Origin: an uncultured Oscillospiraceae bacterium
GTDB lineage: Bacteria > Bacillota > Clostridia > Oscillospirales > Oscillospiraceae
Direction: 5' to 3'
NCBI GenBank assembly: GCA_947627735.1
Contig: CANQXG010000007.1
Coordinates: 1 to 64,000 of the forward strand
Length of the DNA: 64,000 bases
How positions within the stretch are numbered: position 1 is the stretch's first letter; each line of letters opens with the position of its first letter. The notes beneath the pieces are model-generated. The model worked only from the letters and a program-made list of their open reading frames with translations, was not told the DNA's origin and ran no database searches. Below, piece after piece: positions 788 to 18,474 of this stretch. The translations under genes and the position numbers were made by a program.

Positions 788-2815
788 ATGGCGACGCCGG
801 AGATCCTGGCCCCCGTGGGGGGAGAAGAACAGCTCCTGGCCGCGGTCCGCTGCGGGGCGGACAGCGTGTACCTGGGCACCACCGCCTTCAACGCCCGGCG
901 CAGCGCCGCCAATTTCGGCCCGGAAGCCCTGGCTAAGGCCGTGAGCTACTGCCGCGCCCGCGGGGCAAAGGTCTATGTGACCGTGAACACCCTGGTGATG
1001 GACGGCGAACTCGCCGCCCTGGAGGCGACGGCGGACGCCGTGGCCGCCGCCGGGGCCGATGCCGTGATACTGCAGGACATGGCCGCGCTGCGGCTGTTCC
1101 GGGACAAGTACCCCTCCCTGCGCCGGATAGCCTCCACCCAGACCGCCGTCCACAGCGCCGACGGCGCCCGCTTTTTGCAGGACGCGGGCTTCGACGGCTT
1201 CGTGCTGGCCCGGGAGCTGACCCTGGGGGAGATGGAGAAGATATGCTCCGCCGTCACCATCCCGGCGGAGGCCTTCGTCCACGGGGCACACTGCATGAGC
1301 CTGTCCGGTGCCTGCTACCTGTCCGCCATGCTGGGAGGCCGCAGCGGCAACCGGGGCCTGTGCGCCCAGCCCTGCCGGCTGGACTGGCGCTGCGGCGGGG
1401 CGGACCATGTGCTGAGCCTGAAGGACATGAGCCTCATCGGCCACATCCGCGCCCTGGCTGACGCCGGGGTGGCGGCGCTGAAGATCGAGGGCCGGATGAA
1501 GCGTCCGGAGTATGTGGCGGCGGCGGTGACCGCCTGCGTGAACGCCCGGGCGGGCCGGCCCTATGACGGCCGGACCCTGGCCGCCGTGTTCTCCCGCAGC
1601 GGCTTCACCGACGGCTACCTCACCGGAAAGCGGGATAAGGCCATGTTCGGCTTCCGCACCAAAGAGGACGTGACCGGCGCCGAGCAGGTGCTGCCCCGGC
1701 TGGCGGCCCTGTACCGGAAAGAAACGCCCCTCGTGCCGGTGGACATGGACTTTTCCATGGACGGCGCCGGCGCACGCCTCACCGTCACCGACGGGAACAA
1801 CACGGTCACCGCGGACGGCCCCGTCCCGGAGGCCGCCCTCACCCGCCCCCTGGACCCGGACCGGGCTGGGGAGAGCCTGTCCCGGACCGGCGGGACGCAA
1901 TATTATGTCAACTCTTTCCGCGCTGGCATCGCCCCCGGCCTGACCCTGCCCGCCGCGGCCCTGAACGGCATGCGCCGCTCGGCCCTGGCGGAGCTGGATG
2001 CTCTCCGGAGCGCAGCGCCGGCCATCGCCCGGGGCACTTACGCCCCCGTCGTCCCTGTACGGCGCGATCACCCTTCCCCCGCCCCCCTGTGGGCGCGGTT
2101 TTATACGGCGGACCAGATCACCGGCGGGGAGGCCCTGGAGCGGATCATCCTGCCCCTGAACCAAGTCACCCCCGCCCTGCTGGAACGGTATGGGGACAAG
2201 CTGACGGGCCAGCTGCCCGCGGTGTGCTTCCCGGAGGACGAGCCGGCCCTGGAGCGGCAGGTGCGCGCCCTGGCCGGTCAGGGGCTGGGCCAGCTGTGGA
2301 CGGACAACATCTACGGCATCCAGCTGGGCCGTCGCCTGGGCCTCACCGTCCGGGGCGGCTTCGGCCTGAACATCGCCAACGCCCAGGCCATGGATTTTTA
2401 TGTAAACCATCTCGCCAGCCTGACGGTGTCCTTCGAGCTGCCCATGGGGGCCGTCAAGGCCCTGGACGGCCCCCTGCCCTGGGGGATCGCGGCCTACGGC
2501 TATCTGCCGCTGATGCGCTTCCGCAGCTGCCCCGTCCGGGCACACCTGGGCTGCGAAAAGTGCGGCGGCCTGGGCAGCCTCACCGACCGGCGGGGGGTGA
2601 GCTTCCCCGTGGAGTGCGGCGGCCGGCGGTATGCCACATTGCTCAACAGCGTGCCCCTGCACATCGCCGGCCGGGAGGGGGCGGGGGATTTCCGGCTGCT
2701 GTGGTTCACCCGGGAGAGCCGGGAGGACTGCGGCCGGGTCATCGACGATTTCCTGACCGGCCGCCCGGCCGCCGGCCCCCGGACAGGTGGGTTATACTAC
2801 CGCAAACTTCTGTAA
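788..2815 (+). CDS. U32 family peptidase
   Basis: MATPEILAPVGGEEQLLAAVRCGADSVYLG and GNRGLCAQPCRLDW / KIEGRMKRPEYV motifs; start at ATG 788 preferred to 767. Confidence 0.9.
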   Translation: MATPEILAPVGGEEQLLAAVRCGADSVYLGTTAFNARRSAANFGPEALAKAVSYCRARGAKVYVTVNTLVMDGELAALEATADAVAAAGADAVILQDMAALRLFRDKYPSLRRIASTQTAVHSADGARFLQDAGFDGFVLARELTLGEMEKICSAVTIPAEAFVHGAHCMSLSGACYLSAMLGGRSGNRGLCAQPCRLDWRCGGADHVLSLKDMSLIGHIRALADAGVAALKIEGRMKRPEYVAAAVTACVNARAGRPYDGRTLAAVFSRSGFTDGYLTGKRDKAMFGFRTKEDVTGAEQVLPRLAALYRKETPLVPVDMDFSMDGAGARLTVTDGNNTVTADGPVPEAALTRPLDPDRAGESLSRTGGTQYYVNSFRAGIAPGLTLPAAALNGMRRSALAELDALRSAAPAIARGTYAPVVPVRRDHPSPAPLWARFYTADQITGGEALERIILPLNQVTPALLERYGDKLTGQLPAVCFPEDEPALERQVRALAGQGLGQLWTDNIYGIQLGRRLGLTVRGGFGLNIANAQAMDFYVNHLASLTVSFELPMGAVKALDGPLPWGIAAYGYLPLMRFRSCPVRAHLGCEKCGGLGSLTDRRGVSFPVECGGRRYATLLNSVPLHIAGREGAGDFRLLWFTRESREDCGRVIDDFLTGRPAAGPRTGGLYYRKLL

Positions 2816-2863
2816 TCGAGCGTGTCCGCATAGTCTGCTGATAGGTGCAAAGGAGGTGTATCC

Positions 2864-3427
2864 GTGAGTCTTTGGGAGCTGTTCATCCTGGCGCTGGGCC
2901 TGTCCATGGACGCCTTCGCCGTGAGCATATGCAAGGGCCTGAGCCTGGGCCGGCGCATCGGGGCGCGGCACATGGCCCTGGCGGGGGCCTGGTTCGGCGG
3001 GTTCCAGGCGCTGATGCCGCTGCTGGGCTACTTCCTGGGCCGGTTCTTCGCGGAGATGATCACCGCCTACGACCACTGGATCGCCTTCATCCTGCTGGCT
3101 TTCATCGGCGGGAAGATGGTCTGGGAGGCCCTGGACCCCAAGGAGGAGAAGGTGGACGACGCCATGGACGGCAGGACCATGTTCATCCTGGCGGTGGCCA
3201 CCAGCATCGACGCGCTGGCGGTGGGCGTCACCTTCGCGTTCCTGGCGGTGGATATCCTGCCGGCGGTGCTGTTCATCGGCGCCACCACCTTCCTCTGCTC
3301 GGCGGCGGGGGTGAAGATCGGCAGCGTGTTCGGCGCCCGCTACAAGCAGAAGGCGGAGCTGGCCGGCGGGATCGTGCTGGTACTAATCGGCCTAAAGATC
3401 CTGCTGGAGGGCCTGGGCATTTTGTGA
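2864..3427 (+). CDS. mntP: Manganese efflux pump MntP family protein
   Basis: 187 aa; LALGLSMDAFAVSICKGL and ATSIDALAVGVTFAFL motifs, multiple TM segments. Confidence 0.88.
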   Translation: MSLWELFILALGLSMDAFAVSICKGLSLGRRIGARHMALAGAWFGGFQALMPLLGYFLGRFFAEMITAYDHWIAFILLAFIGGKMVWEALDPKEEKVDDAMDGRTMFILAVATSIDALAVGVTFAFLAVDILPAVLFIGATTFLCSAAGVKIGSVFGARYKQKAELAGGIVLVLIGLKILLEGLGIL

Positions 3428-3507
3428 GATTTGCCGGGGGCGTGCCCGGTTGTAAAAAAACGCAAAAATGTGTATAATCTGGTATACTGTAAAAAATGCA
3501 CCGTTTT

Positions 3508-3618
3508 GCGCGGGGGAGCTCGAGGGGGACGTCAGTCCCGCCTCGAATAGGATCTGACGCCCCGCGCGGAGCGCGGCGAGCGGCGCGAGGACTTTTTTGC
3601 CGTTTACGGCAAAAAAGT
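3508..3618 (+). ncRNA. Candidate structured leader upstream of glnS
   Basis: Nested pairings 3508-3515/3560-3567 (gcgcgggg/ccccgcgc), 3520-3530/3535-3546 (tcgagg+gggac / gtccc+cctcga), and 12-bp hairpin 3591-3602/3607-3618 (acttttttgccg/cggcaaaaaagt). Confidence 0.5.
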
Positions 3619-3649
3619 ACCGGCGTCATTAAGAAGAGAGGCGCTTTTC

Positions 3650-5311
3650 ATGGACGAGAACGCGAAAAACTTTATTCTGGACTTTGTCGCCGAGGACATC
3701 GCCCCCGGCGGGCGCTTTGAGGGCCGGCAGGTACACACCCGCTTCCCGCCGGAACCCAACGGCTATCTGCACATCGGCCACTGCAAGGCCCTGTGCATCG
3801 ACTTCGGCACCGCGGAGCGCTTCGGCGGCATCACCAACCTGCGCATGGACGACACCAACCCCGCCAAGGAGGATACCGAGTACGTGGACGCCATCAAGGA
3901 GGACATCCACTGGCTGGGCTTCGACTGGGGCGACCGGTTCTTCTATGGCAGCGATTACTTTGAAAAGACCTATGAGCTGGCGGAGGGCCTCATTAAGAAG
4001 GGCCTGGCCTATGTCTGTGAGCTGACCCCTGAGCAGTTCAGGGAGTACCGGGGCGACGTGGGCACCCCCGCCCGCAGCCCCTGGCGGGACCGGCCCATCG
4101 AGGAGAGCCTGGACCTGTTCCACCGGATGCGGGACGGCGAGTTCCCCGAGGGCAAGTACACCCTCCGGGCCAAGATCGACCTGGCCAGCGGCAACTTCAA
4201 CATGCGCGACCCGGTGCTGTACCGCATCCGGTACATCGAGCACCACCGCCAGGGCACCAAGTGGTGCGTCTTCCCCATGTACGACTTCGCCCACCCCATC
4301 CAGGACGCCCTGGAGGGCATCACCCACAGCCTGTGCTCCCTGGAGTATGAGGACCACCGTCCCCTGTACGACTGGGTCATCAACAATGTGGACGTGCCGT
4401 CGAAGCCCCGGCAGATCGAATTCAGCCGCCTGGGCATCAACTACACCGTCATGAGCAAGCGCAAACTGCGCAAGCTGGTGGAGGAGCACTACGTTTCCGG
4501 CTGGGACGACCCCCGCATGCCCACCCTGTGCGGCCTGCGCCGCCGGGGCTACACCCCCACCGCCGTGCGCACCTTCATCAGCCGCATCGGCGTCAGCAAG
4601 GTCACCAGCACCGTGGAGTACTCCTTCCTGGAGCACTGCCTGCGGGAGGAGCTGAACCTGTCCGCCCCTCGGCGGATGGCGGTGCTGCGGCCTGTGAAGC
4701 TTCTCATCACCAACTACCCCGCCGGCCAGACGGAGACCTTCCAGGTCGAGAACAACAACCTGGACCCCGCCGCCGGCACCCGTCCCGTGACCTTCTCCCG
4801 GGAGCTGTGGATCGAGGCGGACGACTTCCTGGCCGAGCCGGTGCCCAAGTATAAGCGCCTCACCCCCGGCGGCCCCGAGTGCCGGCTGAAGGGCGCGTAC
4901 CTCATCCGCTGCACCGGCTATGAGACCGCCCCCGACGGCACCGTCACGGTCCTGGCCGAGTACGACCCGGACTCCCGGGGCGGCGACCCTGCCGACGGGC
5001 GCAAGGTGAAGGGCGGCACCCTCCACTGGGTGAACGCCGCCGACTGCGTGGACGCGGAGGTGCGCCTGTACGACAACCTCTTCGCCGACCCCGAGCCGGA
5101 CGCGGCGGAGAACTTCCTGGACTGCCTGTCCGACCACTCCCTGGAGGTGCTCACCGGCTGCAAGCTGGAGCGGTCCCTGGAAAATGCCCTGGCCCCGGAG
5201 AGCTTCCAATTCCTGCGCACCGGCTACTTCGCCGTGGACAACAAGGACTCCGCCCCCGGCCACCTGGTGTTCAACCGCTCCGTGGCCCTGAAGGACAGCT
5301 TCAAACCCTGA
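3650..5311 (+). CDS. glnS: Glutamine--tRNA ligase
   Basis: HTRFPPEPNGYLHIGHCKA, VMSKRK motif; full-length GlnRS. Confidence 0.95.
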   Translation: MDENAKNFILDFVAEDIAPGGRFEGRQVHTRFPPEPNGYLHIGHCKALCIDFGTAERFGGITNLRMDDTNPAKEDTEYVDAIKEDIHWLGFDWGDRFFYGSDYFEKTYELAEGLIKKGLAYVCELTPEQFREYRGDVGTPARSPWRDRPIEESLDLFHRMRDGEFPEGKYTLRAKIDLASGNFNMRDPVLYRIRYIEHHRQGTKWCVFPMYDFAHPIQDALEGITHSLCSLEYEDHRPLYDWVINNVDVPSKPRQIEFSRLGINYTVMSKRKLRKLVEEHYVSGWDDPRMPTLCGLRRRGYTPTAVRTFISRIGVSKVTSTVEYSFLEHCLREELNLSAPRRMAVLRPVKLLITNYPAGQTETFQVENNNLDPAAGTRPVTFSRELWIEADDFLAEPVPKYKRLTPGGPECRLKGAYLIRCTGYETAPDGTVTVLAEYDPDSRGGDPADGRKVKGGTLHWVNAADCVDAEVRLYDNLFADPEPDAAENFLDCLSDHSLEVLTGCKLERSLENALAPESFQFLRTGYFAVDNKDSAPGHLVFNRSVALKDSFKP

Positions 5312-5331
5312 TAAAAACCTCACCAAATACA

Positions 5332-5359
5332 GGCGGCGCGGCCAAGTGGCCGCGCCGCC
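5332..5359. terminator. Bidirectional terminator between convergent glnS and pcp
   Basis: ggcggcgcggcc-aagt-ggccgcgccgcc, perfect 12-bp stem between convergent genes. Confidence 0.75.
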
Positions 5360-5376
5360 GATTTCATTTGTCCGCC

Positions 5377-5982
5377 TCAGGCGCCGAAGATGGCCCCCAC
5401 GGCTGCCGTCAGGCCCCGGACCATGTCCTCCAGGGCCATGCTGGGCGTGCCCGGCTTGTCCCGGACCTGCTCCGGGGCGTAGGGCACGTGCATGAACCCC
5501 GCCCGCACCCCGGGCCGCTCCCGGGCCAGCAGATGCAGCAGGCTGTACAGCAGATGGTTGCACACGAAGGTACCCGCGGTATAGGACACCGCCGCCTCCA
5601 CCCCGGCGGCCCGGATGGCCTCCGCCATGGCCTTCACCGGCAGCGTGGCGAAGTAGGCCGCCGGCCCCTCCGGCGCCACCGGCCTGTCCACGGGCATGTC
5701 CCCGGCGTTGTCCGGCATGCGGGCGTCGTCCAGGTTCACCGCCACCCGCTCCGGGGTCATGGCGCTCCGCCCCCCGGCCTGGCCCAGGCAGAGCACCGCG
5801 TCCGGCGCATAGGTCCGTATGGCCTCCGCCACCGGCGCGAAACACCCGGTGAAGGTCACCGGCACCGTCACCTTCACGATCTCTATCTCCCCCACCCGGT
5901 CCGGCAGGCGCCTCATGGCCTCCAGGGCCGGGTTCATGCTCTCGCCCCCGAAGGGTTCAAAGGCCGTCAGCAGCAGCTTCAT
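5377..5982 (-). CDS. pcp: Pyroglutamyl-peptidase I
   Basis: MKLLLTAFEPFGGESMNPALEAM...VLCLGQAGGR...TAGTFVCNHLLY; start at CAT 5980-5982. Confidence 0.9.
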   Translation of the reverse strand: MKLLLTAFEPFGGESMNPALEAMRRLPDRVGEIEIVKVTVPVTFTGCFAPVAEAIRTYAPDAVLCLGQAGGRSAMTPERVAVNLDDARMPDNAGDMPVDRPVAPEGPAAYFATLPVKAMAEAIRAAGVEAAVSYTAGTFVCNHLLYSLLHLLARERPGVRAGFMHVPYAPEQVRDKPGTPSMALEDMVRGLTAAVGAIFGA

Positions 5983-6043
5983 CACGCTCTCCTCCCCTGG
6001 CCCGCTCCCGGGCACGACAAAAGTATAGCACCCTCTTTCCCTG

Positions 6044-6072
6044 TTGACAAGCGCCGCCGGGACGGGTAAGAT
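6044..6072 (+). promoter_or_regulatory. Sigma-A-type promoter (TTGACA-N17-TAAGAT)
   Basis: ttgaca 6044-6049, 17-bp spacer, taagat 6067-6072; -10 ends 6 nt before ATG 6079. Confidence 0.7.
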
Positions 6073-6078
6073 GGCGGC

Positions 6079-6624
6079 ATGAACGTTTACGATTTTGACA
6101 AGACCATCTATCCCCGGGACAGCACCGCCCAGTTCTATCTGTGGTGCCTGCGCCGCTATCCCGCCGCGTGGCTGACCCTGCCCTGCACGGCATGGGCATT
6201 TTTCTGCATAGGCCTGAAGCTGAAGAAAAAGACCGCCTGCAAGCAGATCTTCTACCGCTTCCTGCGCCATGTGCCCGCCGACGCGCCGGAGATATTCTGG
6301 CGGGAGCACATCGGCGATATCTGCCCCTGGTACCTGGCCCAGCGGCGGCAGGACGATCTGGTGATCTCCGCGTCGCCGGAATTTCTGCTGGCCCCCGCCG
6401 CCCGGCGGACGGGCTTTGCCCTGATGGCCTCCCCCGTGGACCAGGCCACCGGCGTATACGCCGGCGAGAACTGCCACGGCGAGGAAAAGGTCCGCCGTTT
6501 CCGGGAAAAGTACGGAAACGCCCCCGTGGAGGGCTTCTGGTCCGACTCCCGGTCCGACGCGCCCATGGCCGCCCTGGCCCAGCACGCCTGGCTGGTCACA
6601 AGGGATGGTATCGTCCCCTGGTGA
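6079..6624 (+). CDS. HAD family phosphatase
   Basis: MNVYDFDKTIYPRDST (DxDxT), SASPEF, FWSDSRSDAPM. Confidence 0.8.
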   Translation: MNVYDFDKTIYPRDSTAQFYLWCLRRYPAAWLTLPCTAWAFFCIGLKLKKKTACKQIFYRFLRHVPADAPEIFWREHIGDICPWYLAQRRQDDLVISASPEFLLAPAARRTGFALMASPVDQATGVYAGENCHGEEKVRRFREKYGNAPVEGFWSDSRSDAPMAALAQHAWLVTRDGIVPW

Positions 6625-6805
6625 GGGCTTTTCCCCGCCCTCCAGATATTGGGATTTACATAACGCTTTTCCCTTGTAGAAGTGCATAAAAGAAACCAGA
6701 ATTTTGGAAAAACATCGGAAGATTCGTCCATTGTAAATCCGACGCTGTGCGTAGTAGAATGTATGGTATCAAGGGAAGTATTTCCCACTGCTGGAGGGCA
6801 CGGCC

Positions 6806-7378
6806 ATGAGAGTTCTGGAGCAGCGCATCCTGCGGGACGGCAAGGTCCGCCCCGGCGGCGTGCTGAAGGTAGACGGCTTTCTGAACCACCAGATGGACGT
6901 GGAGCTGTTCGGCCAGCTGGCAAAGCAGTGGCACGCCGCCTTCGCCGGCGACAACGTGAATAAGATCCTTACCATAGAGGCATCCGGCATTGGGCTGGCC
7001 TGTATCGCCGCCCAGGAGTTCGGGTGCCCTGTTTTATTCGCTAAAAAGTCAAAGACAAAAAACATCGACGGCTCGGTCTACACCACACGGGTGGAGAGCT
7101 TCACCCACGGCAACGTCTATGACGTGATCGTGGCACGGGAGTATCTGCTGCCCACGGACCGGGTCCTTCTTATCGACGATTTCCTGGCCAACGGCGCGGC
7201 CCTGGAGGGGCTGTGCGACCTGGTGCGCCAGGCCGGCGCCACCCTGGTGGGCGCGGGCATCGCCGTGGAGAAGTGCTTCCAGCCCGGCGGGGCGCGGCTG
7301 CGGGCCGCGGGGCTGCGCATCGAATCCCTTGCCCGGATAAAGTCCATGTCCGACAGCGCTCTGGAGTTCATGGACTGA
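6806..7378 (+). CDS. xpt: Xanthine phosphoribosyltransferase
   Basis: MRVLEQRILRDGKVRPGGVLKVDGFLNHQMDV, VLLIDDFLANGAALEGL PRPP motif. Confidence 0.93.
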   Translation: MRVLEQRILRDGKVRPGGVLKVDGFLNHQMDVELFGQLAKQWHAAFAGDNVNKILTIEASGIGLACIAAQEFGCPVLFAKKSKTKNIDGSVYTTRVESFTHGNVYDVIVAREYLLPTDRVLLIDDFLANGAALEGLCDLVRQAGATLVGAGIAVEKCFQPGGARLRAAGLRIESLARIKSMSDSALEFMD

Positions 7379-14829: not shown

Positions 14830-15888
14830 TCACACGATGGACTTGAACACCGGCACCTTTTTCATCACCATGTCGGTGACGTAGGCCGCCGCGAAGGCGA
14901 AGGCCACCACCGCGATCAGCCCGGGGATGCCCCCCAGGCCCAGGGTGAAGGGGTCGAAGTGCAGGTACTTGTACAGCAGCCGCACATAGGCCATGTGGAT
15001 CAGATACACGCCGAAGGAGTGGCCGTCGATATTGCCCAGCACCCGCTTCACGCCGGCAAAGCCCTCCCGCTTCAAAGAGAAAAACCACCCGGCGATGCCC
15101 GCCGCCTGGACGATCACCAGCGGCGAGGTGTAGGAAAACAGCATCTCCGGCACCGGCCAGCCCCGCCGCATCTGCAGCCAGGTCAGCGCCGCCACGGCCA
15201 GGGTGCCCGCCACCGCCATGGCCCCGTAGGCCCGGCGGGGCAGCCTGTCGCCCCAGCGGCGGATGTAGTGGCCCAGAAACAGCCAGAAGGGGTAGATGGT
15301 GCTCACGTGGATATAAAACCCGCAGGGGATGTTCCATATGCCCAGCATGGGCAGCAGGGACTCGAACGCCCCGTACACGATCAGCAGATACCGGATGTCC
15401 CGCTCGTCGGAGGCAGCCGCCACCTTCTTATAGGCCGGCAGCAGCAGATAAAGCCCCACCAGGCAGTACAGGTACCACATGTGGGACCAGGTGTTGCCGG
15501 TGAACACCTCCGCCACGCCCCCCAGAAACACCCGCCAGGTGCGCATGGCGGGGTTGAAGATGGCCTCCAGCACCGCGAACAGCACCCCGAACACCACGAT
15601 GGCCTTCACCACCCGGGCGATATAGCGGCTGAACAGCTTCTTGTAGCCGATCTCACGCTCCGGCGCCAGCAGCAGCGCCCCGGTGACCATGATGAAGCAG
15701 GGCACCGCCCAGTACTGGGCGTTCAGCGCCACCTGGCAGACCGCCGTCTGCACCGCCGTCATGGACGGGCCGTACATCAAAATGGTGGAGTAGGCGGTGT
15801 GCATCAATATGATGCATAGGCACGCCGCCGCCCGCAAGCAGTCATAACCGGCGTCCCGCCGTCCGCTCCCCAGGGCCGCCTCGCTCAC
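14830..15888 (-). CDS. Acyltransferase family protein (acyltransferase 3, multi-TM)
   Basis: DCLRAAACLCIILMHTAYS..., SFGVYLIHMAYVRLLYKY. Confidence 0.85.
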   Translation of the reverse strand: MSEAALGSGRRDAGYDCLRAAACLCIILMHTAYSTILMYGPSMTAVQTAVCQVALNAQYWAVPCFIMVTGALLLAPEREIGYKKLFSRYIARVVKAIVVFGVLFAVLEAIFNPAMRTWRVFLGGVAEVFTGNTWSHMWYLYCLVGLYLLLPAYKKVAAASDERDIRYLLIVYGAFESLLPMLGIWNIPCGFYIHVSTIYPFWLFLGHYIRRWGDRLPRRAYGAMAVAGTLAVAALTWLQMRRGWPVPEMLFSYTSPLVIVQAAGIAGWFFSLKREGFAGVKRVLGNIDGHSFGVYLIHMAYVRLLYKYLHFDPFTLGLGGIPGLIAVVAFAFAAAYVTDMVMKKVPVFKSIV

Positions 15889-16556
15889 CAGAACAGGCCT
15901 CCCGTGATGCAGCCGTCGCTGCCGCTGTTGTAGGTCTGCTGGGCGGCAGCCGCCGCGGCGGCCTCCTCCTCGGCCTTGCGCTGCAGCTCCGCCTCATGGA
16001 AGTCGATCTCCGCCTGACTGGTGTCCACGCTCTCGCCGTCGGCGTCGGTATAGATCAGATACACCAGTTCCTCGTCGGTCAGGGCGATCTGCCCCTCCAC
16101 GAAGTCACCGGCGGGCACGTCGTGCATGGTCAGGCCCGCGCCGTCCGCCAGCTTCACCCACACGTCCACTGGCCCGGCGGCCGGGAAGAACATCTGCCGG
16201 CGCTCCTCCGCCAGGAACGGGCCGTCCTCCCCCAGCAGCTCCTCGGACCAGTCCTCGCCCTCGTACTGGGTGTACACCTCGGTGATATCCTGGCCGGTGG
16301 TGTTGACCAGCTCCGCCGCGCAGCCGTCCTCGGCCTCCTGGCCGATCACGGGCAGCGGCTCCGGGGTGGGTTCCGGGGTAGGCTCCGGGGTGGGTTCCGG
16401 CGTCGCCTCCGGCTCCTCCTCGGCCAATATCTCCTCCTCAGGCTCCTCGACGGGGGCCGGCTCCTCGGTGGGAGCGCTCTCCGCCGCCTGGCCGCCGCAT
16501 CCGGCCAGCAGGCCCGCCGCCAGCACCAGCGCCAGGGCCAGGGTCAGCTTTCTCAT
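15885..16556 (-). CDS. Putative lipoprotein with Glu/Pro-rich (TPEP) repeats
   Basis: MRKLTLALALVLAAGLLAGCGG lipobox; EATPEPTPEPTPEPTPEP; overlaps the downstream acyltransferase gene by 4 nt. Confidence 0.75.
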   Translation of the reverse strand: MRKLTLALALVLAAGLLAGCGGQAAESAPTEEPAPVEEPEEEILAEEEPEATPEPTPEPTPEPTPEPLPVIGQEAEDGCAAELVNTTGQDITEVYTQYEGEDWSEELLGEDGPFLAEERRQMFFPAAGPVDVWVKLADGAGLTMHDVPAGDFVEGQIALTDEELVYLIYTDADGESVDTSQAEIDFHEAELQRKAEEEAAAAAAAQQTYNSGSDGCITGGLFW

Positions 16557-18444: not shown

Positions 18445-18474
18445 ATTATAATACCCCCCCCCCGGGTATTGCAA
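18445..18474 (-). promoter_or_regulatory. Promoter with G10 tract in the -35/-10 spacer
   Basis: Minus strand TTGCAA (18469-18474) - 18-bp spacer containing G10 (18454-18463) - TATAAT (18445-18450). Confidence 0.75.

Follow-up and report, generated by a model that had tools for sequence, protein, structure and literature searches.

Ten Gs between the promoter hexamers of a surface-protein gene

Does a run of ten G between the -35 and -10 hexamers of a promoter from a Gram-positive gut bacterium act as a repeat that tunes transcription by slippage, or is it part of a binding site for a regulator? In host-adapted Gram-negative bacteria, switching by poly-G spacers is textbook knowledge. A sequence-only reading of the window, i.e. 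the whole 64-kb stretch of DNA that was analysed (contig 7 of an assembly with 72 contigs and 86% completeness), had proposed such a mechanism for the present locus and named porA of Neisseria meningitidis as the precedent. This precedent is genuine: poly-G between the -35 and -10 hexamers of porA sets the expression level, with G11, G10 and G9 giving high, intermediate and low expression (PMC3639595).

The arrangement that had been read from the window, TTGCAA, G10 and TATAAT with an 18-bp spacer, was confirmed on the minus strand. The complete order of elements from 18474 to 18445 is TTGCAA, TACCC, G10, TAT and TATAAT, written CTTGCAATACCC-G10-TATTATAAT in the form used for comparison; a G tract of more than the eight units taken as a minimum thus separates the two hexamers (Table 1). 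No other G/C run longer than 6 is present in the window. The 2.36-Mb genome assembly holds four tracts of G≥9, among which only the G10 lies between promoter hexamers, and our survey of the genus found a single member of the poly-G-spacer promoter class in this genome. The length of the tract by itself is unremarkable, since a simple dinucleotide chain predicts about one run of ≥10 per 64 kb. What is remarkable about the tract is its position and its conservation, rather than its length.

Table 1. Position of the promoter elements and genes in the window.
Feature	Position	Strand	Remark
-35 hexamer TTGCAA	18469..18474	minus	TTGACA in sister species
ATACCCGGGGGGGGGGTAT, CsoR-type operator-like palindrome	18451..18469	minus	19 bp instead of 17 (TAC-X11-GTA)
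G10 homopolymer, in spacer	18454..18463	minus	C10 on plus strand; G8 at equivalent position in G021
Second -10-like hexamer TATTAT, overlapping TATAAT	18453-18448	minus	spacer 15
-10 hexamer TATAAT	18445..18450	minus	spacer 18 bp
Secreted choline-binding-repeat (GW-like) protein, transglutaminase-like C-terminal domain, 590 aa	16600..18372	minus	
Lipoprotein-like gene, 223 aa, downstream	15885..16556	minus	gene order conserved in G030 (L115)
Acyltransferase-3 family membrane protein, downstream	14830..15888	minus	gene order conserved in G030 (L115)

The start codon and the nature of the gene product had also been read correctly. The first ATG (18372-18370) is preceded by GAAGAAGG and followed by another ATG codon, and both the signal peptide and the ribosome-binding site begin there. 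A GTG ORF upstream (18579), which would place the tract inside an N-terminal extension of the protein, was rejected for this reason. The 590-aa protein shows an obvious signal peptide, a Glu/Pro-rich stretch, at least seven choline-binding/GW-like repeats and a transglutaminase core, and thus belongs, as expected behind a porA-type promoter, to the exposed or exported proteins (Sec-exported, with cell-wall-binding repeats). Aligned relatives share conserved Cys, His and Asp residues, within GNC, DHGW or PHGW, and D-NF, and from the family these residues probably represent the expected transglutaminase catalytic triad. The three genes are apparently co-transcribed with the surface-protein gene in first position.

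Orthologous promoters in the genus

Orthologs of the gene were compared in 35 genomes of the genus, including the window's own genome (G000) and that of the sister species (G021). The relatives are rabbit (Lapin) metagenome assemblies labelled as uncultured Oscillospiraceae. In the sister species the promoter of the ortholog reads CTTGACAACATACCC-G8-TATTATATT, so that for the window gene the tract differs in length with kept flanks between species only (G10 versus G8), and homopolymer lengths in short-read assemblies may err by one base. Tracts with shared ATACC...TAT flanks are also present upstream of the orthologs in G030 (C3G9) and G026 (C2G10). Here they follow a conserved TTGCAT-17-TATAAT promoter at a distance of about 18 nt, where a change in tract length would leave the spacer of that promoter unaltered. 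In most other species of the genus the ortholog has no tract. In the protein tree G000 pairs with G021 while G026 and G030 stand apart, which requires two changes.

Resemblance to the operator of the copper repressor CsoR

The G10 tract is also the centre of a palindrome, ATACCC...GGGTAT, that resembles the CsoR operators of the genus, a feature absent from the sequence-only reading. A CsoR operator was suspected first, because these half-sites frame the tract and 17-bp CsoR operators of this form occur in the cop promoters of the genus. The tract would then be the incidental G-rich core of a CsoR-type operator (ATACC...GGTAT) between the hexamers, and repressor binding rather than the length of the tract would control the gene. 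As in type 2 operators of the CsoR family (DUF156/PF02583), a TAC...GTA dyad surrounds G/C tracts (ATACCCG10TAT), and the inverted half-sites with the G tract lie inside the -35/-10 spacer, just as in the cop promoter of the same genome (TTGACAAATACCCTTGGGGGGTATATAGT; another 17-bp site follows 26 bp further on). This genome encodes PF02583 proteins at C19 and C25, and the cop operon at C19 carries two 17-bp sites. Throughout the genus, 17-bp operators ATACCCN5GGGTAT are found inside the spacer of the cop (copZ-csoR-copA) promoters; sites of this kind are nearly all 17 bp long and, besides tRNA-Ser and chance coding matches, comprise the cop promoters and the sister-species ortholog of the window promoter. 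Matches to ATACCCCAAAAGGGTAT were rejected as operators, as they are located in tRNA-Ser. The pattern ATACC-N7-9-GGTAT within 300 bp upstream arose in only 2-24 of 20,000 dinucleotide shuffles per species, and it was retained in two lineages despite a different place relative to the core promoter. In addition, a second CsoR-family gene precedes the ortholog by about 1.7 kb in G030 and G026.

Published CsoR operators have the spacing TAC-X9-GTA, and the symmetry of the GTA dyad is needed for CsoR binding (PMC3902906). The site in the sister species fits this canonical spacing (X9, 17 bp), whereas the dyad is X10 (18 bp) in G030 and G026 and X11 (19 bp) in the window, both of which deviate from the fixed spacing. 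Where a -10 hexamer starts with TAT, a poly-G tract in front of it gives the right half-site automatically, and the left ATACC half-site is missing from most of the other poly-G promoters in the genus. Moreover, the window has a single site as against two at the cop loci, and its gene is not a copper-handling one. Judged from the sequence, the resemblance to a CsoR operator is genuine, yet the window site fails the spacing test, and we regard control by such an operator as rather unlikely. A general CsoR regulon was rejected as the overall explanation, as other poly-G promoters lack the ATACC half-site and the spacing in the window is off.

It is quite improbable that both mechanisms are combined, in which case slippage in the G-homopolymer centre of a CsoR-type operator would toggle repressor binding (X9 at G8 versus X10-X11) along with the spacer. 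The four observed lengths of 17, 18, 18 and 19 bp do bracket the canonical 17 bp, and CsoR requires the dyad symmetry for binding, but such a site is restricted to the ortholog group of the window gene and the promoter class described below is explained without it.

Apart from the tract, we noted the element CAAGCCGGGTGGGGGGATA, which directly precedes the start codon of the second, His-rich CsoR paralog and is conserved across the genus (L215, paralogs L212-L234); L215 gave no match in Rfam. In G030 a gene for a monomeric [FeFe] hydrogenase lies behind this regulator.

A recurrent class of poly-G-spacer promoters

Screening the genus for G8 or longer followed by TATNNT gave about 50 rows among the matches listed, compared to 14 for the reversed control; exported proteins lie behind many of these promoters. 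A total of 78 distinct G≥8 tracts lay in the loci that were fetched, which are not a full census, and 24 of these (G8-G11) are straddled by a -35/-10-like pair with spacers mostly of 16-19. A signal peptide is encoded downstream of 17 of the 24 straddled tracts and of 7 of the 54 others (Fisher P = 8e-7); this count is slightly low, since the crude hydrophobicity test used for the call missed at least one signal peptide (L298). Genome G006 alone contains seven TTGACA-N10-G8/9-TATGAT promoters of surface proteins (e.g. MSKRVLSLLLAALMLLSMVPMAYAE...) and an eighth with TTGATT, and further members of the class were identified in G005, G012, G017, G020, G002, G026 and G030. We did not count the very long G runs of G004, G031 and G027 as evidence; they were set aside as possible sequencing artefacts because several are located near contig ends or in G-rich stretches. 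In a region of G017 (C12, about 1500-7300; L306, L291) several G8-G10 tracts stand a few bases before TATAAT, and the adjoining genes are unlike the surface-protein family.

At the level of the order, the pattern TTGA-N4-12-G8-N0-6-TATNNT was matched 80 times across 21 genera (28 of the 394 genomes), a number in which some sites are counted twice and which is inflated by multi-copy families, while the reversed pattern yielded 3; without the two largest families about 40 matches remain versus 3. With C8 in place of G8 we obtained 11 matches versus 4 reversed. A phylum-wide sample, in which multi-copy families were absent, gave 15 versus 4. The promoter class is seen consistently in many independent assemblies, despite possible one-base errors in homopolymers. 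That the G10 is a chance homopolymer is unlikely, as the tract is kept in the sister species and the promoter class recurs.

Tract length among promoter copies within one genome

In two genomes the tract was found to vary among promoter copies whose flanks are kept. The promoter TTGACAC(C)-Gn-TATGTTATGAT occurs 23 times in G377, and its tract is G8 in 13 copies, G9 in 8 and G7 in 2. The DNA downstream of the tract is identical and that upstream near-identical in the 14 copies that were read, and wherever the gene is readable the copies precede MKLKKIASLALAGIMAVSML...C lipoproteins. Many of the 23 copies lie within about 100 bp of contig ends, where the repeated lipoprotein-gene promoter appears to break the assembly. 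In G302 six related promoters of signal-peptide proteins have tracts of G7, G7, G9, G10, G10 and G11, with spacers of 14, 14, 15, 16, 17 and 18. Such differences are predicted by a slippage-prone tract and not by a fixed protein site. It is very improbable that the tract serves exported-protein genes as a fixed element of the promoter or of regulator recognition (an A-form spacer, the target of a G-tract-binding regulator or a sigma-factor preference) instead of a mutable repeat: it tends to adjoin the -10 hexamer and has a strand bias (80 G8 versus 11 C8 matches), but the number of G ranges from 7 to 11 among copies with identical or similar flanks and the spacers from 13 to 20.

Proposed mechanism

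We favor, with a probability of roughly 0.7, the reading that the G10 tract is a slippage-tuned repeat in a porA-type, putatively phase-variable promoter of the surface-protein gene, belonging to a recurrent class of promoters of exported proteins. The phase-variable promoter proposed by the sequence-only reading gains support from the comparison, namely from the G8 in the sister species, the class in genus and order and the different G numbers within single genomes. Polymerase slippage at the mononucleotide repeat would add or remove G residues and thereby shift the distance between the -35 and -10 hexamers, the TATAAT spacer being 18 bp at G10, 17 at G9 and 16 at G8. At G11-G13 the overlapping TATTAT would stand 16-18 bp from the -35 hexamer. 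Because of this overlap, and with TATTAT coming into range at G11-G13, graded expression, as known from porA, would be likelier than a strict on/off switch, and the overlapping hexamers may buffer the effect of tract length. Transcription, and hence the amount of the exported cell-wall protein, would differ among cells of one clone, a heterogeneity that might be of use towards phage, host or diet. We infer reversible slippage in the window species, and its effect on transcription, from the comparison of genomes. Points against a slippage promoter include the -35 hexamer TTGCAA, which agrees with the consensus in only 4 of 6 positions, the likeness of the left flank ATACCC to a CsoR half-site, the place of the tract in G026 and G030, its lack in most other orthologs, and the single member of the class in the window's own genome.

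Intragenic G tracts

G tracts were also noted inside genes. In G032 (C27, L073; 1501 and 2053) a G10 and a G9 lie in two neighboring genes, which we take to be DUF362-like and CapA-like; the first tract runs into the stop codon, and translational phase variation is possible. Three tandem small peptide genes in G007 (C9, L280; 1501, 1698 and 1900; MKEKYESPEVEIVEIAGGG...) each have a coding G9 and are possible phase-variable peptide precursors. In the window's own genome, a small ORF (MSEEKTIKSQELGKVRGGGCEDL...) not far from a contig end has a G11 close to its start (G000:C10:71725-71735, L005), possibly an intragenic contingency tract.

Relation to known systems

Like porA, the window locus has a tract of the G10 class in the promoter spacer of a surface protein, where one-base changes move the hexamers relative to each other. 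It differs from porA in that the host is an unrelated Gram-positive gut bacterium, the protein is unrelated, switching and its effect on expression are predicted from sequence, and the tract is enclosed in an operator-like palindrome and followed by overlapping -10 hexamers. Replication slippage in G tracts (G9-G12) has been reported for pilus loci of Bifidobacterium breve in mice (PMC9187656). There, too, a Gram-positive gut commensal diversifies a surface structure within its population through G tracts; however, the tracts are intragenic and switch the reading frame, and promoter-spacer tracts are mentioned only in passing (PMC9187656). We found no earlier description of a Clostridial poly-G promoter class in the open-access literature, and the class is apparently undescribed in Clostridia.

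Somewhat less firmly than for the single promoter, though still with the balance in its favor, we propose a promoter phasome in members of this order of gut Clostridia, including the uncultured rabbit-gut Oscillospiraceae: families of exported proteins and lipoproteins, up to about two dozen per genome, would each have their own G7-G11 tract, and slippage would generate combinatorial surface diversity, replacing invertible promoters or acting alongside them. Since the assemblies already contain promoter copies that share their flanks but not their tract length, the idea is directly testable on existing metagenome reads. If true, a recurrent class in gut Clostridia would show a way in which commensals may vary their surface that needs no invertible promoters.
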